A DNA stretch of 64,000 bases from Artemia franciscana (Eukaryota; Arthropoda; Branchiopoda; Anostraca; Artemiidae), in contig NC_088867.1 in the NCBI RefSeq assembly GCF_032884065.1, positions 47,742,857-47,806,856 of the forward strand, read 5' to 3'. The translations under genes were made by a program, and so were the position numbers. How positions within the stretch are numbered: position 1 is the first letter of the stretch; each line of letters begins with the position of its first letter. A model generated the notes under the pieces. The model did not search any database and was not told the DNA's origin. It worked only from the letters and a program-made list of their open reading frames with translations. Shown here piece after piece: positions 1-62,848 of this stretch.

Positions 1-136
1 AGTAGGAAATTGGTTTATTTGATGTTGAACTGTTGACTCCAAGGGGCGTGCTGGCATTACTGGGTTTGTGGTGACCAGGTGACTTTGGTGATTGGTTTGA
101 AAAACAAATGACCCTGTCAGTTTATGAAATCCCCCC
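1..136 (+). other. 3' end of ITS2, inverted rDNA copy
   Basis: This is the reverse complement of 4347-4483, which lies directly upstream of the minus-strand 28S and is therefore ITS2. The two copies differ at only a few bases. The homology is still running at base 1, so the inverted copy extends beyond the left edge and its full length is unknown. Confidence 0.8.
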
Positions 137-1099
137 GGCCTCAGCTCAGGCGAGACGACCCGCTTGACTTAAGCATATTAGTCAGCGGAGGAAAAGAAAC
201 TAACAAGGATTCCCTTAGTAGCGGCGAGCGAAGAGGGAAAAGCCCAGCACTAAGGGTCAATTGTATCCTTCGGGAGGCAATTTCGACCGATGCAGTGTTT
301 GGGAGCCTCGTAAGACCGTCGCTTGTCCAGTCTAAAGTCCTCATGAATGTGGCCCGATTGCCCAGAGAGGGTGTCAGGCCCGTAGGACGGATGAGCGCTC
401 GGCATTCCGAGGTCTCTCTAGAGTCGTGTTGCTTGAGAATGCAGCGCTAATCAGGTGGTAAACTCCATCTAAGGCTAAATATGAATGTGAGACCAATAGA
501 AGACAAGTACCGCGAGGGAAAGTTGAAAAGAACTCTGAAGAGAGAGTTAAACATTGCGTGAAATCCTCCAGGGGTTTAAAACGGAAGGACTTTCGAAGTT
601 CGAGCCATCTTCGGGACCAGTGTCGTGGGTAGCGAGTGCTGATGTGATGGGTTGAGGGCAGCCTCGGCTGTTCTCTGGTCATGTTGGTCATCTGCGTTGC
701 TCACGGCGTGTATTCCCGGGTGGATTCGTAATCCGCAAGTGGCTGGAACGGTGTCAAAGGACCCAGTGCTTTTGTTGCTTCGGCTTCAAGACGCTGGATT
801 CCCGGCAACGATTCGGCCCGGCTTCTGTTGCTGGGAGCCCTTTTGTGGGTCTCCTGGGTGAGCGGAGAGTAGGCGAGTTCCTTCCGACCCGTCTTGAAAC
901 ACGGACCAAGGAGTCTAACTTGTGTGCGAGTCGTAGGTCGATGAGAAGACAGATGGCGGAATGAAAGTTAAGGTATTGCTTGCAATGCTGATGGGAGATC
1001 CTTCTCCACTGGAGAGGGCGCATCCCAGGGGCGTCGTGATCCCGTTGCGGATGCGACGCATATAGAGCACACATGATGGGACCCCAAAGAAGAACTATG
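137..1099 (+). rRNA. 28S rRNA 5' fragment (inverted partial copy)
   Basis: The sequence has the conserved start of the large-subunit rRNA: the CGACCCGCT / TTAAGCATATTAGTCAGC block, GGAGGAAAAGAAACTAACAA, then GGTGGTAAACTCCATC and GGGAAAGTTGAAAAGAAC. It covers about the first 960 bases of 28S. It matches the minus-strand copy at 3385-4346 almost base for base, with small clusters of differences near 1060 and 1085-1095. Homology stops at GAACTATG (1092-1099), and the next base belongs to the opposite-strand copy. A 28S cut at this point lacks the peptidyl-transferase half, so it cannot be functional. Confidence 0.9.
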
Positions 1100-1154
1100 A
1101 AGAGAGTCATAGTTACTCCCGCCATTTACCCGCGCTTCGTTGAATTTCTTCACT

Positions 1155-1188
<34 letters not shown>

Positions 1189-1212
1189 CGTCAACACGCG
1201 ATGGCGCCTTCG

Positions 1213-1246
<34 letters not shown>

Positions 1247-2178
1247 CTGGATCGTGCCAGTTCTGAGTTGGTCGTTCATTGGGCGCTGAGGCTCCGCACC
1301 AAGCCGAAGCAAGGCACTAAGAGCACTGCTTGGGCCGTCCACGACCAGCTTGAGAAGGGATCGAGCACCCTTGCGAGATCCCAAGCCCAACTCGGTAGCC
1401 AGTCGCATCTTGCTCCAAGCCCGACACCCTTAACCTTCAGAGCCAATCCTTATCCCGAAGTTAAGGATCCAATTTGCCGATTTCCCTTACCTACATTCAT
1501 CTATCGCCTAGAGGCTGTTCACCTTGGGGACCTGATGCGGTTATCGGTACGGTCTGGTGGGAGGAGTAGACGTGGCCCTCACCATGGTTTTCAAGGACCG
1601 ACAAGAATGCACGGACGTCGCTCAAGTGCAACGCTCTTCGGAACATTAACCCTATCTCTCCGCGGAGGAATTCCAGGGTTTGTATCTCACTTACACAGAA
1701 AAGAAAACTCTTCCCGGCACTCCCGCCAGCTTCCCATGGCCAATTCTCGTTGCCGAGACGGATACGAGGATCCGAACGTTACCCCAACCAGGTTCCCGAA
1801 TAAAAACGGGATTCCCTTTCGCCCTTGCCACGAGCCTCACGCTTTGCGATCAACACTTCGTGTCTCTTTCGTTCAACGCTCGTCTTGTGCTACCATTTCA
1901 GGTTGGGCTTAGGACCGACTGACCCATGTCCAACCACTGTTCACATGGAACCCTTCCCCACGTCAGGCCTCAAGGCTCTCTCTCGAGTATTTGCTACTAC
2001 CACCAAGATCTGCACCACTGGCCGCTCCAGGCAGGCTCACGCCCAAACCCTTCAACGCAACCAGTGCGACCTCCCTACTCACCGGCGCGTCAGCGACGAT
2101 CACCAAGGATCGACGAGCTCTGCGACCGGCGGTCCGGTATCAGCACAATGCTAAAGCGCCTCCCATTTTAAGGGCTAG

Positions 2179-2210
<32 letters not shown>

Positions 2211-2535
2211 AAGCGGTTTCCGACCTCCATGGCCACCGTCCTGCTGTCTGGAGCAACCAACTCCTTTCCATGGGATCGGGAATATGCATTGGTTTTGGCG
2301 CTTTAACCGGACATTTGGTTCATCCCACAACGCCAGTTCTGCTTACCAAAAGTGGCCCACTGGGCACTCGGATCCGAAATCCTTGCCGCTAACAACACCA
2401 CGGTCGGCAAGGCATCTCACCCATTGAAAGTTTGAGAATAGGTTGAGGCCGTTACGGCCCCAAGGATCGACGAGCTCTGCGACCGGCGGTCCGGTATCAG
2501 CACAATGCTAAAGCGCCTCCCATTTTAAGGGCTAG

Positions 2536-2567
<32 letters not shown>

Positions 2568-2892
2568 AAGCGGTTTCCGACCTCCATGGCCACCGTCCTG
2601 CTGTCTGGAGCAACCAACTCCTTTCCATGGGATCGGGAATATGCATTGGTTTTGGCGCTTTAACCGGACATTTGGTTCATCCCACAACGCCAGTTCTGCT
2701 TACCAAAAGTGGCCCACTGGGCACTCGGATCCGAAATCCTTGCCGCTAACAACACCACGGTCGGCAAGGCATCTCACCCATTGAAAGTTTGAGAATAGGT
2801 TGAGGCCGTTACGGCCCCAAGGATCGACGAGCTCTGCGACCGGCGGTCCGGTATCAGCACAATGCTAAAGCGCCTCCCATTTTAAGGGCTAG

Positions 2893-2924
<32 letters not shown>

Positions 2925-3335
2925 AAGCGGTTTCCGACCTCCATGGCCACCGTCCTGCTGTCTGGAGCAACCAACTCCTTTCCATGGGATCGGGAATATG
3001 CATTGGTTTTGGCGCTTTAACCGGACATTTGGTTCATCCCACAACGCCAGTTCTGCTTACCAAAAGTGGCCCACTGGGCACTCGGATCCGAAATCCTTTC
3101 CGCTAACAACACCACGGTCGGCAAGGCATCTCACCCATTGAAAGTTTGAGAATAGGTTGAGGCCGTTACGGCCCCAAGGCCTCTAATCATTCGCTTTACC
3201 GGATGAGACTCCCGTCTCCTTTGCTTGAGTGCCAGCTATCCTGAGGGAAACTTCGGGAGGAAGCAGCTACTAGATGGTTCGATTAGTCTTTCGCCCCTAT
3301 ACCAAGCTCCGACAATCGATTTGCACGTCAGAATC

Positions 3336-3368
<33 letters not shown>

Positions 3369-4346
3369 TGACCTGGCCAGGCATAGGTCACCATCTTTTG
3401 GGTCCCATCATGTGTGCTCTAGGTGCGTCGCATCCGCAACGGGATCACGACGCCCCTGGGATGCGCCCTCTCCAGTGGAGAAGGATCTCCCATCAGCATT
3501 GCAAACAATACCTTAACTTTCATTCCGCCATCGGTCTTCTCATCGACCTACGACTCGCACACAAGTTAGACTCCTTGGTCCGTGTTTCAAGACGGGTCGG
3601 AAGGAACTCGCCTACTCTCCGCTCACCCAGGAGACCCACAAAAGGGCTCCCAGCAACAGAAGCCGGGCCGAATCGTTGCCGGGAATCCAGCGTCTTGAAG
3701 CCGAAGCAACAAAAGCACTGGGTCCTTTGACACCGTTCCAGCCGCGTGCGGATTACGAATCCACCCGGGAATACACGCCGTGAGCAACGCAGATGACCAA
3801 CATGACCAGAGAACAGCCGAGGCTGCCCTCAACCCATCATATCAGCACTCGCTACCCACGACACTGATCCCGAAGATGGCTCGAACTTCGAAAGTCCTTC
3901 CGTTTTAAACCCCTGGAGGATTTCACGCAATGTTTAACTCTCTCTTCAGAGTTCTTTTCAACTTTCCCTCGCGGTACTTGTCTTCTATTGGTCTCACATT
4001 CATATTTAGCCTTAGATGGAGTTTACCACCTGATTAGCGCTGCATTCTCAAGCAACACGACTCTAGAGAGACCTCGGAATGCCGAGCGCTCATCCGTCCT
4101 ACGGGCCTGACACCCTCTCTGGGCAATCGGGCCACATTCATGAGGACTTTAGACTGGACAAGCGACGGTCTTACGAGGCTCCCAAACACTGCATCGGTCG
4201 AAATTGCCTCCCGAAGGATACAATTGACCCTTAGTGCTGGGCTTTTCCCTCTTCGCTCGCCGCTACTAAGGGAATCCTTGTTAGTTTCTTTTCCTCCGCT
4301 GACTAATATGCTTAAGTCAAGCGGGTCGTCTCGCCTGAGCTGAGAC
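1100..4346 (-). rRNA. 28S rRNA, 3'-truncated, internal triplication
   Basis: On the minus strand this is 28S rRNA from its 5' end (about 4346) towards the 3' half. Landmarks are the reverse complements of TTAAGCATATTAGTCAGC near 4310, the CTAATCGAACCATC block near 3280, and the domain around 1110-1260 with CATAGTTACTCCCGCC and GTTTTAATTAGACAGTC. It ends at ...GACTCTCTT (1100-1106), two bases before the conserved R2/I-PpoI cut in CTCTCTTAAGGTAGC, so roughly the last third of the gene is missing. A 357-bp internal block is present three times. It sits downstream of ITS2 in normal rDNA order. Truncation plus triplication mark it as non-functional or mis-assembled. Confidence 0.9.
2105..3175 (-). 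repeat. 357-bp tandem triplication inside 28S
   Basis: Three head-to-tail units (about 2105-2461, 2462-2818 and 2819-3175) begin at GGATCGACGAGCTCTGCG and end at GAGGCCGTTACGGCCCCAA. The exact 357-bp period is seen in repeated landmarks such as GGCAGGTGAGTTGTTACAC. The units are almost identical; the third has CCTTTCCGC where the others have CCTTGCCGC near 3098. Normal 28S carries this segment once, followed by GGCCTCTAATCATTCGC as at 3177. Confidence 0.95.
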
Positions 4347-4957
4347 CGGGGGGATTTCATAAACTGACAGGGTCATTTGTTTTTCAAACCAATCACCAAA
4401 GTCACCTGGTCACCACAAACCCAGTAATGCCAGCATGCCCCTTGGAGTCAACAGTTCAACATCAAATAAACCAATTTCCTACTACCAAAGTCATAGTAGT
4501 CCATTCCTGTGACAAAAGGCTGTCAGTCAAAGTGTTTTAGCCAAGAAGAATTGGATTTTCATCCTCATTGGGCCCTTATACACTCTGTACACCCAATAAT
4601 GTGTAACACCTCCTCTAAGTTCCACCAAAAAGGAGCTCAGTTACCATTACCCAGTTGGGTGACAAGTAAAAGAATGATCCACAAGAGGCTTAGCCCTGGG
4701 CCTTGTCTTACTTGATGAGATCACTTGCACCCCTTGTACTATTGATTCCCCTAAACCAATAGCCCACAACAAAGAGGGAAATGAGACCAGTAAGCGAGAC
4801 CAAATTTACCTCTCACCAAATCCTCTCAACATAAACAGTTGACACAAAACTTGACGAGATCGTTTGCAATCTCTATAGGCGTTGACATCAACGGCCCTAT
4901 AGAAGCAAGGAGCCTCGCAGTGACGGTATACCCAGATGACCGTATGATAAAAACATC
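4347..4957 (-). other. ITS2
   Basis: This spacer of about 610 bp lies between the 5.8S (minus strand, ending near 4958) and the 28S start near 4346. Short open frames in it have no coding features. Its last 137 bases recur inverted at the left window edge. Confidence 0.8.
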
Positions 4958-5115
4958 CGTCTCTCAGCCAGACGTAGTCCAAGCTCAAAGGCTGGACATG
5001 CAATTTGCGTTCAAAATATAGACGTTCCATGTGTCCTGCAGTTCGCATGGAATCACGCGTCTAGCTGCGTTTGTCTTCGTAATGTGAGCCAAGTGATCCA
5101 TCCTCCAGGGTCGTT
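4958..5115 (-). pseudogene. 5.8S rRNA, probably degraded copy
   Basis: On the minus strand the order GGATCACTTGGCTC, ACGCAGCTAG, GAACTGCAGGACACATG and TTTTGAACGCAAATTGC identifies 5.8S rRNA of about 158 nt. Blocks that are almost invariant in eukaryotes are damaged here. GAAGAACGCAGC reads GAAGACAAACGCAGC, the usual GGTCGATG before it reads ACATTACG, and an extra base or more lies between CACATG and the AACAT-like stretch. This suggests a decayed pseudogene, though an error-prone assembly is possible. It lies between ITS1 and ITS2 in normal order. Confidence 0.8.
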
Positions 5116-6213
5116 CTAATGAATGTTTCAAATTCTCCCTTAAACAAGGCCAATGCAATTGCACCCTTGCACACCTCAAGCCATGCTCTGTTGGGGCAAG
5201 CTCACCTTCACTCCCTTTAGTCTCGCGGAGTGGTATCCATGATCCTTGAATCACAGAGCCACTCTAGTCCCCAATATGACTATTTTTCACTATGATTTCA
5301 CACGTAGAAAATATACATCGAGATGTCAAGAGCATGTTGGCATATTGCTTGCAAAATCGATGCTACATTAGTGCAGTCGCAGTGCAAGACTTTGGCTCAC
5401 CTGAGGACTTCCGCGCCTCTCTTTTGACCAAGCCAATCCCTTCGTCTCGCACCACTTGGAAACTCAGGAAGGGTAAAGAGTGCTTCCCGGGCCCCACCAA
5501 AATGTTGCTGGGGCAGCAACTACCACAGTGTTAGTAATCTAATGTCCATTATTTTTCAGATGGCATGACTTTGTGGCCCTCGTACACAACTCAAGATGTG
5601 TCACAAGCTTTGCAGGCTCTCGTTTCCTCACAAGAGCCCCCGTCTGCAAAAGCAAGGTCCCAATCTAATTGTGCTGCGAAAAATCCCACTACCATCCTAG
5701 AATAATCGGCCACAGATACCAAGACCTCGAGACAAATAACCCAGTATATCATCTCGAGATCCCCCACACAAACATAGGCAGCAACACTCACCTCAGTGTT
5801 GGGTTTGTCTCAACAGGGACGTCAAAGTAATTCCATTGACTTGGCTACCTTCACAAGCTTTGCATGCTCCCACTCCTCTGAGAGCCCCCACTACAGAGCT
5901 AGTTCAAGTCCTCAAAGTCAGTCAATGGTCTCACCGATTCTCCATTAAATCAACAAACCAAACTTTTTAGGCCAATCCACCACAATGGATTGCCGTCAAA
6001 GCCCACCATTCCTCAAGACTCCGTTGAGCACTCCATTGTTCAACGAATGGCCCCCATGAATGATGCTGCACAAGGGTACCACCCCCTCACAATAGGCAAA
6101 ACCGACTTGTGCACCTCAAACATCAAACACGGGGACGTGTATCAATAACAACGATTCGGAAAAAACTACTGACCACACATGGCCAAGAAGTCTCCTTCTC
6201 GTTTATCAAACGC
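5116..6213 (-). other. ITS1 (about 1.1 kb)
   Basis: This is the spacer between the 18S 3' end (6214) and the 5.8S 5' end (about 5115) on the minus strand. The length is unusually long for an arthropod ITS1 and is one reason to suspect a brine shrimp. No coding feature is seen. Confidence 0.8.
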
Positions 6214-6271
<58 letters not shown>

Positions 6272-6359
6272 AAGGATCAAGTTTGAACAACTTTCAACCA
6301 CACCACGAGCAGCCCGGAGGCTGCCCTGGCGAGTCGTCCGAAGTTCTCACTAAATCATT

Positions 6360-6405
<46 letters not shown>

Positions 6406-6837
6406 ATCGACGCAAGCTAATGACTTGCACCTACTAGGGATTCCTGGTTCATGGGGATCCTTGCAGTCCCCAATCCCAACCACGGAAGAGGTTCAGCGGT
6501 TACCCGGTCCTCTCGGACAGGGAGGACGCGCTGATTCTTCCAGTGTAGCGCGCGTGCGGCCCAGGACATCTAAGGGCGTCACAGACCTGTTATTGCTCAC
6601 TCTCATATGGCTAGACGCCACTTGTCCCTCTAAGAAGAGCGATCCACCACTAGGATCCATCGTCTATTTAGCAGGCTAGAGTCTCGTTCGTTATCGGAAT
6701 TAACCAGACAAATCGCTCCACCAACTAAGAACGGCCATGCACCACCACCCACTGAATCAAGAAAGAGCTCTCAATCTGTCAATCCTTCCAGTGTCCGGGC
6801 CTGGTGAGGTTTCCCGTGTTGAGTCAAATTAAGCCGC

Positions 6838-6886
<49 letters not shown>

Positions 6887-7057
6887 TTTGCAACCATACT
6901 TCCCCCGGAACCCAAACACTGGTTTCCCGGAAGCTGCCCGCGGAGTCATTCAAGTAACGTTCGCGGATCGCTGGTTGGCATCGTTTATGGTTAGAACTAG
7001 GGCGGTATCTGATCGCCTTCGAACCTCTAACTTTCGTTCTTGATTAATGAAAACATT

Positions 7058-7088
<31 letters not shown>

Positions 7089-7144
7089 GCGACGGTCCAA
7101 GAATTTCACCTCTAGCGTCGCAGTACGAATACCCCCGTCTGTCT
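6214..7144 (-). rRNA. 18S rRNA, 3' half only
   Basis: The minus strand carries the 18S 3' end (reverse complement of TAATGATCCTTCCGCAGG at 6214), the universal GTACACACCGCCCGTCG region near 6385, the CAATTCCTTTAAGTTTCAGC complement near 6870, and the stem near 6980-7040. It is recognisable up to CGAATACCCCCGTCTGTC (about 7127-7144), then stops abruptly in non-rDNA sequence. About 930 of the usual ~1800 bases are present. With no 5' half and no visible promoter or external spacer, this is a truncated orphon copy. Confidence 0.9.
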
Positions 7145-24086: not shown

Positions 24087-24203
24087 TTCTTACAGTTTAG
24101 TCCATACATTGCGTCTTTTCTTATCTGTTTTTACTTGTATCCTAATGACAGAAATAGCTTATACATCTTTTTTTTATCAGATTTGACATCAGAATAGAAG
24201 AAA

Positions 24204-26176
24204 ATGTCACAATTTCCAAGAGCTAAGTGGGAGGAATATTCTGATTCGGTTGCTGAAAAGAAAGTTGACCAGTATTTCATGATTAAAGCAGCTATTGTAG
24301 ACCTAGAGGCTGGCTTACCAATTAGGGCAGTGGCGGAGAAACACGGAGTGTTACGTTCAGCCCTTCACAGACACTACCAAAAGTATTCAAAACTCAGTGA
24401 TGACGAAAAAGCGAATTACAGTGGTGCTCAAAAGTTCGGATTTGCTACTATTTTTACGCCCGAAGAAGAAGCATCGCTCTCTCAATACCTGCTGCAAGCG
24501 AGCAGAATGTGTTATGGTTTGACCAGTCGAGACAACAGAACCCTTGCTTACAACTACGCCGTTGCAAACAACAAGACTGTCCCAGACAGCTGGATAGACT
24601 CTAAAGAAGTCGGTATAGACTGGTTAGCTGGATTTCGGGCTCGAAACCCAGAGCTTTCGCTTAGAAAGCCAGAGGCAACAAGTTTGGGGCGTGCCACAAG
24701 CTTTAACAAGCACAATGTACAGGAGTTTTTCTCCAACTTGCAGTCAGTTTTAAAGAAAACTCCATTTACAGCAAGCGACATATTCAACTGTGATGAAACC
24801 TCAGTCACCACTGCTCATGTTCCTCCAAAGGTTTTTGCCGAGAAGGGTAGAAAAATAGTGGGCAAAGTAACCTCAGATGAGCGTGGCGTGCTTGTGACTA
24901 TGATTGGAACCATCTTTGCCAGCGGGCAATACCTTCCCCCCCTACCTTATATTCCCACGCAAGAAATTTCAGCCTCACATGCTGACTGGTGCTCCTGCTA
25001 ACTCTGCTGGAGGAGCCTCGCCTTCCAGATGGGTAAACCAAGAACTGTTTCTGGAATATCTCAAACATTTCAAGACTTACTCGCATGCTTCCCCTGAAAG
25101 CCCGAAGCTTCTGATAATGGACAACCACGAGTCCCACATCTGTTCTTCAGTTGTGCAGTTTGCGAAAGAGTCTGGTATCACTTTACTTACAATATCACCT
25201 CACTGCAGCCACAGGTTGCAGCCATTGGACATTTGCGTGTATTTTCCCTTCAAATGCCAATACAACAAGGCTATGGACAACTGGATGCTGTCCAACCCAG
25301 GGAAGACCGTGACGATATACGAGATTGCATCTCTTGTTGGCCAAAGCCTCCCCGTATCTTTCACGCCAAACAACATAATGAGGGGCTTCGAGAAGACAGG
25401 GATATGGCCTTACAATCCAGACATCTTTACAGAAAATGATTTTCTAACCTGTGCTGTAACTGACAGACCTGCACCTGATACTTTGGATCCAGTTGAACCT
25501 GGAAACAACCTGGCCGAAACCCCAAGTACAAGTGGGCCTGAACAATCCTCTACACCCGTTTCAGTTCCTGTGACGCCAGAACAAGTTCGGCCATACCCTA
25601 AAGCCAAGCCGCGTTTACTGAGTGGCAGAGGCAGGAAGAAAGGCTGTACAAAGATTCTTACTGACACTCCTGTGAAAAGACAGATTGAAGAACAAGAAGC
25701 CGAAAGAAAAGATAAGAAAGCACGGGGTGGCAGGGCTAGAGGGAAAAGTTGGGACTGTTGGAAGAGCTGGAAAAGCAAAAAAAGACCAGACAACAAAAAA
25801 GCTATTTGTGGATTCAGAAGGAAGTGATGATGAAAAAATGATTCTTGATGATGATAGTGATGACTCGATGAAACTAGGTGAATCGGAAGATGAAAGTGAG
25901 AAAGAGGAAGAGATCTTTGACAGTGTCTCTACAGGAGATTTTGTTAAAGTTGTTTACGAAGGAGAGTATTTTCCTGGGTCTGTCCAAGAGAAAAACGAGA
26001 ACAGTGTCAGAGTGAGTGTCATGTGCATGGCCGGTCTAAGAAAGTGGAAGTGGCCGGACCGAGAAGACTCAATATTTTATCCAAGGGAAGACATTTTGAA
26101 AAAGTTGTCGCCTCCTACCCCAGCACCCGGTACAGCTTCCAGAGCAGCGTCATACTTCGTGTTTGCTGACTGGTAG
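24204..26176 (+). pseudogene. pogo/Tigger-type DDD transposase, two frameshifts
   Basis: The protein begins at Met 24204, the first Met of a 265-codon frame. Residues ~9-60 resemble a Psq-type helix-turn-helix and ~84-180 a CENP-B-type DNA-binding domain. The DDE_1 catalytic core follows, with Asp in NCDET (residue 197), Asp in LLIMDNHESH and Asp in HRLQPLD, so the pogo DDD triad is visible. Reading shifts by one base in a run of seven C at 24936-24942 (six would restore the frame) and again near 25735. The C-terminus has an acidic linker and a domain ending in WKWPDREDSIFYPREDIL, known from related Tigger proteins. Its role would be cut-and-paste transposition in the nucleus. Both breaks could be mutations or homopolymer errors. 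Confidence 0.85.
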
Positions 26177-29343: not shown

Positions 29344-30906
29344 TATGGCACATGGTATTAACCAAGTGACATATAGCAATCGCAAATTCTGTTGGTCTGT
29401 TGGTCCCGGTTTGCTACTTCAGGTACTTCTAGATAAGCCAGGACGATGAAATTTGGCAGGTGTATCAGGCGTTTTCCCGATTTGACCATCTGGGTGGGGG
29501 GGGGGGGGGTGGGGGGCCCGTTAATTTGGAAAAAAATAGAAAAATTGAAGTGTTTTTAAGTTACGAACGGTTGACCAGATCTTAATGAAATTTGATTTTT
29601 GGAAGGATATCGTGTCTCAGAGCTGTTATTTTAAATCCAGACCGGATCTGGTGACATTGGTGGGGGGGAGTTGGGAGGGGGAAACCTAAAATATTGGAAA
29701 ACACTTAGAGTGGAAGGATCGGGATGAGACTTGTTGGGAAAAATAAGCAGAAGTCTTAGATACGTGATTTACATAATTGGAAAGGATCCGCTCTATCGGG
29801 GGGGGGGATTAGTTCTGAAAAATTAGAAAAAATGACGTATTTTTAACTTACGAAGAAGTGATCGAATCTTCATGAAACTTCACATTTAGAAGGATCTCGT
29901 AACTCAGATCTCTTATTTTAAATCTCAACCTGATCCAGCGTCATTGGTGTGGGGCAGTTGGGGGGTACCGGAAATCTTAGAAAATACTTAAAGCGGAGAG
30001 ATCAGGATGAAACTGGATGGGAAGAATAAAACCTGTCTAAGATACATGACTGACATAACCGGACCGGATCTGCTCTCTGGTGGAGTTGGGGGGGGATTTG
30101 GAAAAATGAGCTATTTTTAACTTACGAAAGGGTGACCTGATCTTAAAGAATTTTGATATTTAGAAGGATCTTGTGCTTTAAAGCTCTAATTTTAAATTCT
30201 GACCAGTTCTTGTGACATCGGGGGGAGTTGGAGGGGGAAACCGGAATTCTTGGAAAACGTGGAAATTGGGGTATTTTTATCTTACGAATAGGTGATCGGA
30301 TCTTAATGAAATTTGATATTTAGAAGGAATTCATGTCTCAGAGCTCTTATTTCAAATCCCGACCAGATCTTTTGACATTGGGGGGAGTTGGAGGGGGAAA
30401 TCTGGAAAACACTTGGAGTGGAGGAATCGGGATGAAGCTTGGTGGATAGAATAAGCAAATGTCCTTGACACGTGATTGACGTAACCGTACTGGATTCGCT
30501 CTCTTTGGGGGAGTTGAGGGGAGGCTTTCGGTGATTTGGCGAGTTTGGTGCTTCTGGACGTGCTAGGATGATGAAAATTGGTAGGCGTGCCAGGGACCTG
30601 CATAAATTGACTTGATAAAGTCATTTTCCCAGATTCGACCATCTGAGGGGCGAAAGGGAGAGGAAAAATTAGAAAAAATTAGGTATTTATAACTTACGAG
30701 TGGGTGATCAGATCTTAATGAATTTTGATATTTAGAAGGGCATCGTGACTCAGAGCTCTTATTTTAAATCCTGACTGGCATTAAGCCTATGATTTTCCTT
30801 TTGAAATCAATCTATTGATTCTTAGAATTTTGTTAGAGCTCATACCATATGAGGTCTTGGCACTTAGCTCTTCTTGCCTCGTCACAAGTGCCATATGAGC
30901 TCTTGC
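29344..30906 (+). mobile_element. family R element, copy 1 (Helentron/HINE-like)
   Basis: The element starts TTTT-TATGGCAC with a short hairpin (ACCAAGTG near 29360) and ends near CACAAGTGCCATATGAGCTC. Thus an 11-base TATGGCACTTG-type motif appears inverted at the two ends (here with one mismatch at the left). The interior is a degenerate array. Units contain CTTACGAA, a GATC(A/G)GATCTTAATGAAATT block, GATATTTAGAAGGAT, TCTCAGAGCTCTTATTTTAAA and one or two G tracts. It encodes no protein. Subterminal inverted motifs plus a tandem core plus a 3' hairpin are the hallmark of Helitron-like non-autonomous elements; that classification is inference. Confidence 0.75.
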
Positions 30907-38772: not shown

Positions 38773-40518
38773 GGTTTTTATGGCACTTGGTATTAACCAA
38801 GTGACATATAGCGATCGCAAATTCTGTCAGTCTGTCTGTCGGTCCCGGTTTTGCTAGTTTAGGCACTTCCAGATAAGCTAGAACGATGAAATTTGGCAGG
38901 CATATCAGGGACCCGATCAGATTAATAAAGTCGACCATGGTCGACCAAATAGTCGTTTCCCTGATACGACCATCTGGGGGGGGAGTGGGGGACGGCTAAT
39001 TCAGAAAAAAATAGAAAAAAATGAGGTATTTTTAACTTACGAACAGGTGATCAGATCTTAATAAAATACGATATTTTGAAGGATATCCTGTCTCAGAGCT
39101 CTCATTTTAAATCCCGACCGGATCCGGTGACATTGGGGGGTGTTAGAGGGGGAATCCTAAAATCTTGGAAAACGCTTAGAGTGGAGGGATCGGGATGAAA
39201 CTTGGTTAGAAAAATAAGCACAAGTCCTAGATATGTGATTTACATACCCAAAACGTATCCGATCTCTTTGGGGGAGTTGGGAGGAGGGTTAATTCTGAAA
39301 AATTAGAAAAAATGAGGTATTTTTAAGTTACGAAGGAGTGATAGGATCTTAATGAAATTTCATATTTAGAAGGAGATCTCTTATTTTAAATCCCAACCGA
39401 ATCCAGTGTCATTGGGGGGAGTTGTGGGGGGTGACCAGAAATCTTGGAAAAGGCTTAGAGTGGAAAGATCAGGATGAAAATTGGTGGGAAGAATAAGCAC
39501 AAGTTAAAGATACGTCGCTGACATAACCGGACCAGGTACGCTCTGTTTGGGAGGGGGGGGGGGGTAGTTGGGAAAAATAAGAAAAAATGAGGTATTTGTA
39601 ACTTACGAACGGGTGATCACATCTTAATAAACTTCGATATTTAGAAGGATCTTGTACTTCAGAGCTCTTATTCTAGATCCCTACCAAATCTGGTGCCATT
39701 AGGGGGAGTCGGAGGGGAAAACCGGAAATCTTGGAAAACGTGAAAATTGCTGTATCTTTATCTTACGAATGGGTGATCGGATCTGAATGAAACTTGATAT
39801 ATAGAAAGATTTTATATTTCAGATGCTCTATTTTCAATTCAAATTGGATCCGTGGACACAGCGGTTTGGAGGGCGTGAAGAGAAATTTTGGAAACCGGAA
39901 ATCTTGGAAAACGCTTGGAGTGGAGAGATCCGGATGAAACTTGGTGGGAAGAATACACACAAGCTCTAGATACGTGATTGATATTTTTTAGAACGGATCT
40001 GCTCTCTTTGGGGGAGTTTGGGGGGGGGGGGTAATTCGAAAAAATTAGAAAAATTGAGGTATTTTTAACTTAAGAACGGGTGACCGGATCTTAATGAAAT
40101 TTGATATTCAGAAGGAAATCAGGTCTTAGAACTCTTATTTTTAATCAAGACCAGATCTGGTGACATTGGTGGGAGTTGGAGGGGTAACCAGTAATCTTGG
40201 AAAACGCTTAGAGTGGGGTATCGGGATGAAACGTGTTGGGTATCATAAGCAAATGTCGTAGATACTTGATTGACGTGACCGGGCTTGATCTGCTCTCTTT
40301 TGGGGAGTTAGGGGGTGGTGTCCAGTGCTTTGGTGAGTTTGGTGCTTCTGGACGTGCTAGGACGATGAAAATTGGTAGGTGTATCAGGGACCTGCACACA
40401 TTGACTTGATAAAGTCGTTTTCCCAGATTCGACCATCTGGGGGGCTGAAGGGAGAGGAAAAATTAGAAAAAATGAGGTATTTTTAACTTACAAGTGGGTG
40501 ATAGGATCTTAATGAATT

Positions 40519-48905: not shown

Positions 48906-50590
48906 TATGGCACTTGGTATTAACCAAGTTTGTATCAGGTGTATCAGGGACCGGACCAGATTAAATTAGAAATAGTCGTTTTCCCGATTTGACCATCTGG
49001 GGGGGGGGGAGCGGGGGGGCCCGTTAATTCTGAAAAATAGAAAAATTGAAGTATTTTTAACTTATGAATCGTTGATCAGATCTTAATGAAATTTGATGTT
49101 TGGAAGGATTTCGTGTCTCAGAGCTGTTATTTTAAATCCCGACCGGATCTGGTGACACTGGGGGGAGTTGGGAGGGGGAAACCTAAAATCTTGGAAAACA
49201 CTTAGAGTGGAGGAATTGGGATGAAACTTGGTGGGAAAAATAAGCACAAGTCCTAGATACATGATTGACATAAACAGAACGGATCTGATCTTTTTGGGGT
49301 AGTTGGGGGGGGGGGTGGTTAATTCTTAGTTATAGTTATTTTTAACTAACGAACGGGTGATCAGATCTCAATGAAATTTGATATTTAGAAGGATATCTTG
49401 TCTCAGAGCTCTTATTTTAAATCCCGACCAGATCTGGTGACATTGGGGGGGGGAGTTGGGAGGAGGAAACCTAAAACTTGGAAAACACTTAGAGTGGAGG
49501 GACGGGGATGAAACTTGGAGGAAAAAAAAAATCACAAGTCCTAGATACATGATTGACATAACCGGAACGGATCTGCTCTCTTTGGGGTAGTTGGGGGGGG
49601 GGGTAATTCTGGAAAATTAGAAAAATGAGGTATTTTTAACTTACGATCGGGCGATCGGATCTCAGTGAAATTTGATATTTAGAAGGATATCGTGTCTCAA
49701 AGCTCTTATTTTAAGTCCCGACCGGATCTGGTGACATTGGGGGAAGTTTGGGGTGTGGGAACCTAAAATGATGGAAAACGCTTAGATTGGCGGGATCGGG
49801 ATGAAACTTGGTAGGAAAAATAAGCAGAAGTCTTAGATATGCGGTTTACATAATTGGAACGGATCCGCTCTATTGGGGGGGGGGGTTAATTCTGAAAAAA
49901 TAGAAAAAATAACGTATTTTTAACTTGCGAAGGAGTGATTAGATCTTCATGAAACTTCATATTTAGAAGGACCTCGTAACTCAGATCTCTTATTTTAAAT
50001 CTCAACCGGATCCAGCGTAACTGGGGGGGTGGGCAGTTGGGAGTAACCGGAAATCTTAGAAAATACTTAAAGCGGTGAGACCAGGATGAACCTGGATGGG
50101 AAGAATACAAACATGTCTAAGATACGTGACTGACACAACCGGACCGGATCTGGTCTCTTTGGGGTACTTGAGGGGGGGGGGTTAATTTTGAAAATTGAGG
50201 TATTTGTAACTTGCGAAAGGGTGACCAGATCTTAATGAAATTTGATATTTAGAAGGATCTTGTGCCTTAAAGCTCTAATTTTAAATTCTGACCAGATCCT
50301 GTGACATTGGGGGGAGTTGGAGGGGGAAACCGGAATTCTTAGAAAACGTGAAAATCGGGGTATTTTTATCTTACGAATAGGTGATTGGATATTAATGAAA
50401 TTTGATATTTAGAAGGACGTCGTGACTCAGAGCTCTTATTTTAAATCCTGACCGGCATTAAGCCTGTTATTTTCTTTTTAAATCCATCTATTGATTCATA
50501 GAATTTTGTTAGAGCTCATACCATATGATCTCTTGGCTCTTAGCTCTTCTTGCCTCGTCACAAGTGCCATATGAGCTCTTAGCTCTTGTT
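48906..50590 (+). mobile_element. family R element, copy 3
   Basis: Starts TATGGCACTTGG, then TATTAACCAAG, and ends GTGCCATATGAGCTCTTAGC plus TCTTGTT. Just inside the left end about 40-130 bp, including the GACATATAGC block, is missing compared with copies 2 and 4. About six internal units follow, each with CGAACGGGTGATC-like text, GATATTTAGAAGGAT and a G tract. It encodes no protein. Confidence 0.8.
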
Positions 50591-54350: not shown

Positions 54351-55991
54351 AATGATGAACACTAATGTCCTATATTTTACTGGTAAGGGATGATAGTTTG
54401 CTAATAATATGAGATTTTAATCATCCACTGGGTACCAATGAAAACCTGGTTATCCCTAAATCAGCTGGGAAGAAGTCCTTAATCGTTGGATTTTTGTGGA
54501 ATGGAGAAAATATGCAACCTATTTGTTATCATAAGTTTTTGGTAGTGGCAATAGATTGGTCATATATCTCGGTTTAAAAAGAAAAAAAAACCTAAGCTGA
54601 TGTTTTTTTCGGCTTTCCTATGAAGGTATTACGCCTCTTTAGTTAAAATAAATATGCCTCACTTCAGAAAATTTTAAAATCCAAATAAACCGAAAAAGTA
54701 GAAGATTTAATAGGATCATGCACTTTGTCAGTGCCTGAGTATAGGCAATTTCTGAATGTAGCATTTAAATTACTTTCAGAAATGGTTATTTTAATAAGTT
54801 TTGCTTTGTTAAGTCAATTGTAGTGAATAAGTATTTTAAAAATATTTTCATTGAATATTACATTATCATTACATTTATTTTGTTAAAAAAAAAACGAACT
54901 CAATAACACAATCAGAGATCCCACCTAGGCTCTGTGGCCTGTTAAGTGGGACAATCACGAAACAGAACTTACACATATTAACCTCTTAGTCGATTAAGCA
55001 CATAAACTTCCAAAACGAGTACTGACAAAAATAGAAAGAATAAAAAGAGCAGAAGAAAAAATAGAAAGAAAAAAAAGAGCAGAAGAAAAAAACGAGCAGA
55101 AGAAAAAAAGCATCAAAAAAGACAAAAAAAGAGGAAGTGACAAAAGGAAAGAGGGTTTTTCCACAAAGGACAAAATTGAAAACTGATACGCAAAGTTTAT
55201 GATATCATATTTGAATAACTCATCTTGGGGTCGTCCTCTACTTTTTCCAGCTAAGTAGAAGTCGATGACTTTTTCCTGCATGTTATATAAGACGCAATTT
55301 CATTATTTAAATAAATGAAAAATATAGCATCTGAAACATCAATAAATGTCTATACATGACACATATAAAAAATGTAGACATGATGAATAATATGAAAAGA
55401 TAAATAAATCAACTTTTAAATAAAAGACACAATGGAAGAACTAGATTAAATAACGTTGGATGACAATTAATCACAGTAAACAGCTCAAATTGAAAAAAGA
55501 TTCAACACAGTAATGAGCTTATAGGCATTGCCAAGGTGGGAAAGTTTAGCTCGCTTTATCACGGGTATTGGCTCACTTTACAGAAAAATTTCTACTCCAG
55601 AGAAGAATTTCAGTTTATACAACAAGCTTGAGTAAATTTTGTAAGATTTGGAAGACCTATACCCTAACCTTGTTCGTTTGAGGTCATACAGCTGGCTAAG
55701 CTGTTTTTATGGAAAAGATAACTGGCCCTAACAGTTCTTAAGCATGCACGATGCTGTCTTTCTGGTGGCTCCCTCTTCTCACTTAGACCGCTGTGGTTCA
55801 GTTTTTGGTTTCTCAAGTTTTATCGAAGGAGGGAAGGAGAATGCCTACTGTAACTTTTCCATCCTTTTGGATAAATTTTTGTTGACAAAGTTGTCTTCGT
55901 GACTAAATTTTGTTGCTAAATTTTTGTTTGTGCCTAAATTTGTTGGCTATTTGGGTTTGTAACTAAAATAAGCCTTAATTTTTTTTTCTAG
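54351..55991. other. intergenic or intronic AT-rich sequence
   Basis: A strongly purine-rich tract (AGAAGAAAAAA-type units with GAGCAGAAG) runs about 55028-55160. The remainder may be intron of the zinc-finger gene, since its exon begins with a splice acceptor at 55991. No upstream exon could be identified. Confidence 0.45.
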
Positions 55992-56941
55992 ATGATACTA
56001 TTGAGTCAATCTATGGAAATGGCCCGTCCAAACAAGAGCACGGAAAACAGTTTGTTCCTGGCTTTACAAGTGTATATCTTAAGCAAGAAACCGATTCAGA
56101 TTGTGAACCTGTGCTGGCTAGTGACTTGCACGTATTTTCTAACAACGATGTCACTGAAAAGGAGGACTGCAAACAAAATCCAGGTAGTTCATTAGAAATA
56201 TTACCCGGAGGAGATCTACATAAACACAAAAAAACTTATGAAGAAGAAAAAGTTTTTGTGTGTGATATATGTAAGAAAACATTCTCACAAAGATACCAAA
56301 TGTCGAATCATAGAAGAATTCATACTGGAGAGAAACCTTTCAAATGTGCTATGTGTGAGAAAGCATTCACCACCAGTTCAGTGCTATCGCGTCATCGAAG
56401 AGTTATTCATGAAGGGGAAAAACGTTTCAGCTGTGACACATGTAGAAAAGGCTTCTCTTCTAGTTACAATTTGTCTAAACATCAAAAAACTCATACTGGT
56501 GAAAAGCCTTTTGTGTGTAATATATGTGAAAAAAGTTTTACTTTTGAATTCAGTTTGTCTTCACATCGAAGACTTCACACGGGTGAGAAACCTTTTGAAT
56601 GTGAAAAATGTAATAGAAGCTTTCATTCTGCTTCCAGTTTATCAAAACACCGAAAAACTCATAGTGGAAAAAAACCCTTTGAGTGTGATATGTGTGAAAA
56701 AACTTTCACCTTTAGATTCAGTTTGTCGTCACATCGAAGAATTCACACTGGGGAAAAACCCTTCCAATGTGAGGTTTGTAAGAAATGTTTCTCCTCTAGC
56801 TCTAATTTATTAAAGCACCAAAAAACCCACACAGGGGAAAAACTCTTTGAGTGTTGGCTATGTAAGAAAACCTTTGTCTCTTGTTCTAGCTTAGAGAAAC
56901 ATGGAAGAGCTCACGATGAAGAAAATGTGTCTTGTAAATAA
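55992..56941 (+). CDS. C2H2 zinc-finger protein, terminal exon (8 fingers)
   Basis: The exon starts after a strong acceptor (TTTTTTTTTCTAG, AG at 55990-55991), because the frame is open back to exactly that point, upstream of Met 56111. It enters in phase 1. About 88 residues of acidic leader are followed by eight tandem C2H2 fingers (about 56255-56928), mostly C-x2-C-x12-H-x3-H with TGEKP-type linkers. Finger 2 has H-x4-H and linker HEGEKR; linker 5 is HSGKKP. All zinc ligands are present. Fingers 4 and 6 share a FSLSSHRR helix. The TAA stop (56939-56941) overlaps AATAAA. The likely role is nuclear DNA binding and transcription control; the target is unknown. Upstream exons were not found, so the true N-terminus is missing. 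An active gene is likely; an isolated retained exon is possible. Confidence 0.85.
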
Positions 56942-60971: not shown

Positions 60972-62848
60972 TATGGCACTTGGCATTAACCAAGTGACAT
61001 ATAGCAATCGCAAATTCTGTCGGTCTGTCCGTCTGTCGCTCCCGGTTTTCCTACTTTAGGCACTTCCAGGTAAGCTAGGACAATGCAATTTGGCAGGCGT
61101 ATCAGGGACCGGACCAGATTAAATTAGAAATAGTCATTTTCTCGATTTGACCATCTGGAGGGGGGGGTGAGTGGGGGCCCGTTAATTCGGAACAAATAGA
61201 AAAAATGAAGCATTTTTAACTTACGAACGGTTGATCAGATCTTAATGAAATTTGATGTTTGGAAGGATATCGTGTCTCAGAGCTGTTATTTTGAATCCCA
61301 ACCGGATCTGGTGACATTAGGAGGGAGTTGGGAGGGGTAAACCTAAAATCTTGGAAAACACTTAGAGTGGAGGGATCGGGATGAAACTTGGTGGGAAAAA
61401 TAAGCACAAGTCCTAGATACATGATTGACATAACCGGAATGGATCCTCTCTCTTTGGGGTAGTAAGAGGGGGGAGGTTAATTCTGAAAAATTAGAAAAAA
61501 TGAGGTATTTTTAACCTACATACGGGTGATTGGATCTCAATGAAATTTGATATTTAGAAAGATATCGTGTCTCAAAGCTCTTATTTTAAATCACGACCGG
61601 ATCTGGTGACAAGGGAGGAGTTTGGGGGGAGCCTAAAATCATAGAAAACGCTTAGATTGGAGGGATCGGGATGAAACTTGGTTGGGAAATATGAAGAAGT
61701 CTTAGATACGTCATTTACATAATTAGAACGGATCCGCTCTATTAGGGGGGGGGGGATGATTCTGAAAAATAAGAAAAAATGACGTATTTTTAACTTACGA
61801 AGGAGTTATTGGATCTTCATGAAACTTCATATTTAGAAGGACTTCGTAACTCAGATCTCTTATTTTAAATCTCAACCGGATCCAGGGTCATTGGGGGGGG
61901 GGGGCGAAAATCTTATAAAATACTTAAAGCGGAGAGATCAGGATGAAACTGGATGGGAAGAATAAAAACCTGTCTAAGATACGTCACTGACATAACCGGA
62001 CCGGATCTGCTCTCTTTGGTGGAGTTGGGGGGGGGTGTACTTTTGAAAATTGAGGTATTTGTAACTTACGAAAGGGTGACCTGATCTTAATGAAATTTGA
62101 TATTTAGAAGGATATAGTGCTTTAAAGCTCTAATTTTATATTCCGACCAGATCCTGTGATTTTGGGAGGAGTTGAAGGGGGAAACCGGAATTCTTGGAAA
62201 ACGTGAAAATTGGGGTGTTTTTATCTTACAAATAGGTGATCGGATCTTAATGCAATTTAATATTCAGAAGGAATTCATGTCTCAGAGCTTTTATTTCAAA
62301 TCCCGACCAGATCTTTTGACATTGGGAGGAGTTGGAGGGGGAAATCTTGGAAAACACTTGGAGTGGAGGAATCGGGATGAAGCTTGGTGGATAGAATAAG
62401 CAAATGTCCTTGATACGTGATTGACGTAACCGTACTGGATTTGTTCTCTTTGGGGGAGTTGGGGGGAGGGGTTCAGCGATTTGGCGCGTTTGGTGCTTCT
62501 GGACGTGCTAGGACGATGGAAATTGGTAGGCGTGTCAGGGAGCTGCATAAATTGACTTGATAAAGTCGTTTTCCCAAATTCGACGATCTGGGGGGCTAAA
62601 GGGACAGGAAAAATGAGGTATTTATAACTTACGAGTGGGCGATCGGATCTTAATGAATTTTGATATTTATAAGGACATCGTGACTCAGAGCTCATATTTT
62701 AAATCCCGACCGGCACTAAGTCTCCGATTTTCCTTTTAAATCAATCAATTGATTCTCAAAATTTTGTTAGAGCTCATACCATATGATCTCTTGGCTCTTA
62801 GCTCTTCTTACCTCGTCACAAGTGCCATATGAGCTCTTAGCTCTTGTT
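60972..62848 (+). mobile_element. family R element, copy 4
   Basis: The fullest copy. It starts TATGGCACTTGGC, then ATTAACCAAGTGACATATAG and a TCTGTCGGTCTGTC stretch, and ends CAAGTGCCATATGAGCTC plus TTAGCTCTTG. About seven degenerate units each hold CTTACGA..GGTGAT, TTTGATATTTAGAAGG, CTCAGAGCTCTTATTTTA, GGATC-GGTGACATTGGGG and CTTAGAGTGGAGGGATCGGG. Its left end abuts the LINE relic. It encodes no protein. Confidence 0.85.

Follow-up and report, generated by a model that had tools for sequence, protein, structure and literature searches.

How did a ribosomal DNA (rDNA) unit of Artemia franciscana come to be joined to an inverted neighbour, with its 28S gene ending where R2 retrotransposons insert? 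The DNA analyzed here, called the window, is the whole stretch of 64,000 nucleotides at C5:47742857-47806856, and the features that bear on this question are collected in Table 1. At window position 1100 the minus-strand 28S ends ...GACTCTCTT and is fused there to an inverted ITS2/28S arm (1-1090); the 28S tracks the Rfam LSU consensus up to UGACUCUCUU and departs from it beyond. The inverted join was thereby confirmed as the preliminary description of this DNA had reported it. The two arms are 99% complementary, lie 2303 nt apart and, up to window 1089, differ in the arm alignment by 11 substitutions and 0 indels. The description had called the structure an rDNA palindrome; a simple palindrome does not fit, with 2.3 kb of 28S between the arms. 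The 8-bp fold-back with AGAGAG in its loop was found in the sequence as described.

Table 1. Features of the inverted rDNA join and of the fragment that carries it (window positions)
Feature	Position	Strand	Basis
End of ITS2 and 5' part of 28S, cut short within 28S	1..1089	+	Rfam LSU 159-904 +; inverted-repeat arm; array context from L024, L025, L044, L045
Ten filler bases AAGAACTATG (minus strand: CATAGTTCTT) between the arms	1090..1099	.	9/10 identical to 28S 528-537
8-bp fold-back: AACTATGA (1093-1100), loop AGAGAG (1101-1106), TCATAGTT (1107-1114)	1093..1114	.	Sequence
AAGAGAG (minus strand CTCTCTT), final seven 28S bases before the join; 7-nt microhomology with 28S 538-544	1100..1106	.	
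Inverted rDNA fragment: 28S to the R2 site, ITS2, 5.8S, ITS1, 3' part of 18S	1100..7144	-	
357-bp piece of 28S in three tandem, nearly identical copies joined at CCAAGG	2103..3179	-	
Second inverted-repeat arm	3394..4483	-	Inverted-repeat search

The inverted fragment has its right edge within 18S at ~7144, given that the L042 match begins at reference position 257, which is window 7144. The CCAAGG at which the 357-bp triplication is joined is a 6-base match, and it lies in the same fragment as the inverted join. Exact 26-mers over both joins were absent from L001-L043, the loci that these checks took in (L044-L053 stood outside them), except for L016, which is the window's own place.

The window's first base adjoins 5000 N on its left, beyond which there are spacer repeats of ~600 bp; the rDNA of L034 has these repeats next to it as well, in the same orientation and 97-98% identical in the best alignments. 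At several loci the N runs come in round sizes and look more like masked tiles than like gaps of the assembly. Comparison of the window with L034, each of which has 5000 N here, gives a shift of 295 in the phase of the repeats and of 296 in the rDNA coordinate, and because of this agreement the 5000-N block fits a normal rDNA unit, up to whole repeats. Since the left flank past the 5 kb of N consists of rDNA spacer repeats, the + arm appears to be the final unit of an rDNA array in plus orientation, and the stretch from 1100 to ~7144 an inverted fragment at its edge. Spacer repeats are also found on both sides of an R2-bearing rDNA unit ~21 kb left of the window, whose 28S ends at C5:47721586, with N runs between, and exactly 100 consecutive N at C5:47707757-47707856 (L045) look like a scaffold gap. 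Elsewhere in the window, two overlapping frames on the + strand at 24198-25827 belong to a DDE_1 transposase-like gene (Pfam match within 24904-25827), an open frame at 55979-56941, also +, carries C2H2 zinc fingers with eight Pfam zf-C2H2 stretches, and related tandem repeats of ~280-295 bp recur at 29531-30076, 38981-39649, 49025-50347 and 61183-62138.

The genome (1,270,528,402 bases in 6468 contigs, 1.27 Gb) was searched with the 121 bp that precede the R2 site, and all 19 of 19 candidate places were scored. The full 121-bp match extends to its last base at nine of the 19, the window included, and six of the eight copies besides the window run on into R2 (L025, L028, L029, L030, L031 and L043); the other two are L026, where 28S is uninterrupted through the site, and L032, which departs from 28S three bases past it. 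The L025 element has a frame that is open from a stop for ~990 codons over the readable letters, its product contains an RVT_1 reverse transcriptase domain (Pfam), and its best match among solved structures is named R2 retrotransposon protein (E 4.4e-79). The L028-L031 elements were assigned to R2 through DNA similarity to the L025-type element, and the L029 piece matches the C-terminal part of R2 chains (5.5e-21), with no Pfam endonuclease family reported for it. One R2 5' end follows the last 28S base in both L025 and L030, L043 shows a related 5' end (DNA similarity of 79-80% over 170 nt), and in L028, L029 and L031 a 5'-truncated R2 comes directly after 28S. The R2 3' ends abut TAGCCAAATGCC in L029 and L031, the two copies with a 3' end read, which places them at the fixed position in 28S ahead of TAGCC. 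No R2 was found at the junction of the window, as the R2 queries match the window only at 28S-like pieces of 80 bp and at repeats which, in the L029 query, are not part of R2. As a separate observation, a piece of ~80 bp in the R2 5' leader resembles an internal part of 28S in the same sense (88-91% identity; L030 6276-6355, L031 4073-4152), and the resemblance is weaker in the L025 element (77% to L032).

In five of the six R2 5' junctions 28S stops at CTCTCTT, the same base at which it stops in the window. The exception is L028, where 28S goes one to three bases beyond; in L029 the last T of CTCTCTT can be assigned to 28S or to R2, and in L031 nine extra, 28S-like bases follow CTCTCTT. The classical R2 top-strand cut lies two bases beyond the end of 28S in the window (PMC2718515), and the end is therefore placed as the preliminary description had it, with the addition that it is the usual last 28S base of the R2 5' junctions in this genome. 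I-PpoI, which we regard as no more than a landmark at this site, plays no part in the findings.

Several matches to this region of 28S stood outside the R2 count. L046, L050 and L051 are diverged copies in which the match ends 3-4 bases short of the site; R2 remnants are present in L046, whose 28S ends after GACTC, and by eye L050 resembles worn 28S and L051 departs from it. The match in L033 ends 12 nt short of the site. In L052 and L053 (C12, C13) only the last 36 and 33 bases match; on these different contigs there is a common repeat, with 33-36 nt of pre-site 28S ending in CTCTCTT and with similar flanks, and from this resemblance the two look like copies of one dispersed repeat. At four more of the 19 places the match ends before the site (C1:33515931, C2:12292842, C2905:337309 and C15:27033252). 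From L024 to L043, rDNA pieces with varied ends are scattered on many contigs; several of them start in non-rDNA and stop before they reach the R2 site. Past the site, 28S seems to stop near one place, after GACCCTGTTGAG, and to be followed by differing sequence in L026 (~5853), L029 (~3418) and L031 (~9245); 28S ordinarily continues differently beyond GACCCTGTTGAG, and this stop may mark a second place at which breaks or insertions are favoured. A search for 28S references gave 0 matches in viral contigs and 15 places in bacterial and archaeal genome records; the rDNA of the window matched the latter in pieces with 73.8-97.1% identity, the top value over only 35 bases, and no near relative was among them.

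The ten filler bases between the arms have a likely template in the rDNA unit. CTCTCTT with ten readable bases after it occurs at two sites of the unit, both in the inverted sense; at one of them the following ten bases, CAGAGTTCTT, are identical to the filler CATAGTTCTT at nine of ten positions, and at the other at one of ten. The probability of a 9/10 match behind any of the 49 TCTT sites is 0.0013 for random ten-mers and 0.002 for ten-mers drawn from the rDNA. What was found is thus a filler that matches nearby DNA behind a short match, as expected of microhomology-primed repair.

Taken together, it is rather probable that the junction is an old repair scar at the edge of an rDNA array on C5, derived from a break at the R2 target. 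An rDNA unit would have been broken at this target, most likely by the endonuclease of R2 itself in a failed insertion, which would leave a top-strand 3' end ...GACTCTCTT. The CTCTCTT of this end would have paired through its seven bases with AAGAGAG at 28S 538-544, copied about ten bases and been released; it would then have re-engaged ~540 nt further along, at GGGACCC-GAAAGA, and, by copying or by joining, been connected to an rDNA unit of the opposite orientation. An overlap of just one to four bases and perhaps a slip of CTT, as judged by eye, weakly suggest this second switch, from the filler into the arm. The repair route would be polymerase-theta-type end joining or microhomology-mediated break-induced replication. 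The junction is probably a scar without function.

The idea of a break at the R2 target gains support because R2 sits at the site and five of its six 5' junctions stop at the window's base; from this one junction we infer that R2 was the maker of the break. A random end in the 6045-nt inverted fragment would meet this base with a chance of ~1/6045, a figure that is not corrected for the fame of the site, which drew attention to it. Other points count against the account: there is a single junction, one base of the filler is mismatched, the six R2 junctions may be of common ancestry, and 5000 N hide the continuation of the arm. In addition, the commonest last 28S base in Drosophila is four bases further on than that of the window (PMC2718515).

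A break that owes nothing to R2, through fork collapse or at random, may have fallen beyond the site and been trimmed to CTCTCTT by pairing with the upstream AAGAGAG, in which case the coincidence with R2 would come from microhomology alone. The 7-nt match exists and could set the end equally well after an unrelated break, and microhomology also marks another rearrangement of the fragment, the 357-bp triplication, which is not known to be linked to R2; but the one useful heptamer would have to end exactly at the usual R2 junction base of this genome, and we hold such an origin to be rather unlikely.

An artefact of the assembly or the library, with chimeric or fold-back reads joining two ordinary rDNA units, appears less likely still. 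Nanopore sequencing of rDNA is known to yield artefactual palindromic reads (PMC8559705), and the junction has a single copy among the loci searched. However, a strand-switch read would give adjacent, near-identical arms, and these arms are separated by 2303 nt and 11 substitutions with no indel. In a comparison with 14-15 other copies, changes that are private or rare number 8 in the + arm and 4 in the minus arm, none of them common to both, and at position 1085 both arms differ from the other copies, each with a different base. A chimera should resemble the identical copies, whereas an old inherited join should have drifted. L025, L026 and L028 are mutually identical over 1366 or 871 bases, while the 28S body of the window shows 16 differences in 1360 positions from L025 and L026 and 12 in 871 from L028; differences from less uniform copies amount to 45/1360 for L029, 18/521 for L030 and 66/1361 for L031. 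The drift of both arms, with other copies identical, thus argues against a chimera of ordinary units. Of the 8 changes of the + arm, 3 crowd into the final 30 of its 1090 bases, next to the join (P 0.001), in a post hoc test that is not used as proof. The arm alignment omitted the own-locus match in L024, the matches of <500 bases in L040 and L043, and for L031 and L033 the second, shorter piece.

The preliminary description had explained the junction by snap-back or microhomology repair after a break at the R2 target. If the R2 break had been repaired by snap-back at the nearby AACTATGA, a perfect 8-bp inverted repeat with a 6-nt loop would have served; yet this accounts for 8 of the 10 filler bases behind one primer base, one of >2600 such sites in the unit, and the rival template accounts for nine behind seven. 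Because the 9/10 match comes immediately after the same CTCTCTT, template switching primed by microhomology is a better fit than the 8-bp snap-back, which we consider very improbable. AACTATG, said to be carried by both joined 28S sites, is not common to them in this genome: in the 28S stretch of the + arm the other copies read GACCTATG, with C as the differing base in 12 of 14, A in one and T in one, unlike the Rfam consensus, which has AACUAUG there. These bases of the other copies in the arm alignment also ruled out the + arm's own sequence as the source of AACTATG. The earlier interpretation as a whole is therefore partly supported: the observation stands except for the common AACTATG, the R2 part is strengthened by R2 at the site and the shared end base, and the repair detail is altered, as neither the snap-back primer AACTATGA nor the AACTATG homology is favoured.

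RNA-templated twin priming, an idea that comes from LINE-1, was rejected, as on the side of the arm one comes, across 5 kb of N, to spacer repeats that are not transcribed with the unit. In Daphnia the piggyBac element Pokey targets TTAA at this place, but a cut by such an element is extremely improbable here. Although the bases preferred by Pokey (PMC3849761) fit CTCTC-TTAA-GGTAGCC in our own placement of them on 28S, a piggyBac cut would leave CTCTC or CTCTCTTAA, the 28S of the window ends after TT, inside TTAA, and beside the site each of the eight full-length copies has R2, 28S or spacer-like DNA.

A repair scar of an R2-target break has partial counterparts in known systems. Upstream 28S deletions, extra bases (some from 28S) and microhomology are described at R2 5' junctions of Drosophila (PMC2718515); the window junction is like these in its 28S cut at the R2 site, small upstream deletion, microhomology and extra bases, and unlike them, since they lead into R2, it leads into inverted rDNA. 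In the fly germline, R2 double-strand breaks are reported to start the recovery of rDNA copy number (PMC10266012); the break at an R2 target within the rDNA array is shared, but the repair in flies is a homology-dependent exchange and the join of the window is inverted, with microhomology. Templated inverted insertions through fold-back at breaks are described for yeast (PMC11724301), and there too inverted copying is primed by microhomology beside the break; the yeast insertions are mostly of 5-34 bp, whereas in the window a long inverted unit follows the ten bases. In human cells, rDNA units that are palindromic or inverted were reported by Caburet et al. 2005, as cited in PMC8559705, and resemble the window in having neighbouring units in opposite orientation; PMC8559705 finds true palindromes to be rare, and its passages on them make no link to R2, whereas the join of the window lies at the R2 site. 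Among the titles and abstract openings listed in searches of the open-licence literature, none concerned an inverted rDNA junction at an R2 site, a result that applies to those texts and implies no absence from print at large.

Two further copies hint that the site is a recurrent end. In L032 spacer-like repeats (75-84% identical) appear ~160 bp past the end of 28S, and in L033 inverted 28S begins 12 nt short of the site; the queries that found both favour this region. We suggest, tentatively and as possible rather than probable, that R2 cutting is a recurrent source of inverted or truncated rDNA in this genome, in which ends of failed insertions at CTCTCTT would be captured by inverted units, as in the window, or by spacer-like DNA, as in L032. 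The boldest form of this suggestion is that the top-strand end which normally primes R2 second-strand synthesis would itself be extended on a wrong rDNA template.

A base-exact, inherited junction of this kind would show an error-prone outcome of an R2 break, and its signature, that is, a 28S end at the R2 junction base, a templated filler and an inverted unit, can be counted in other genomes. If R2 cutting is recurrent, the array edges and the scattered rDNA pieces would keep a readable record of R2 breaks.
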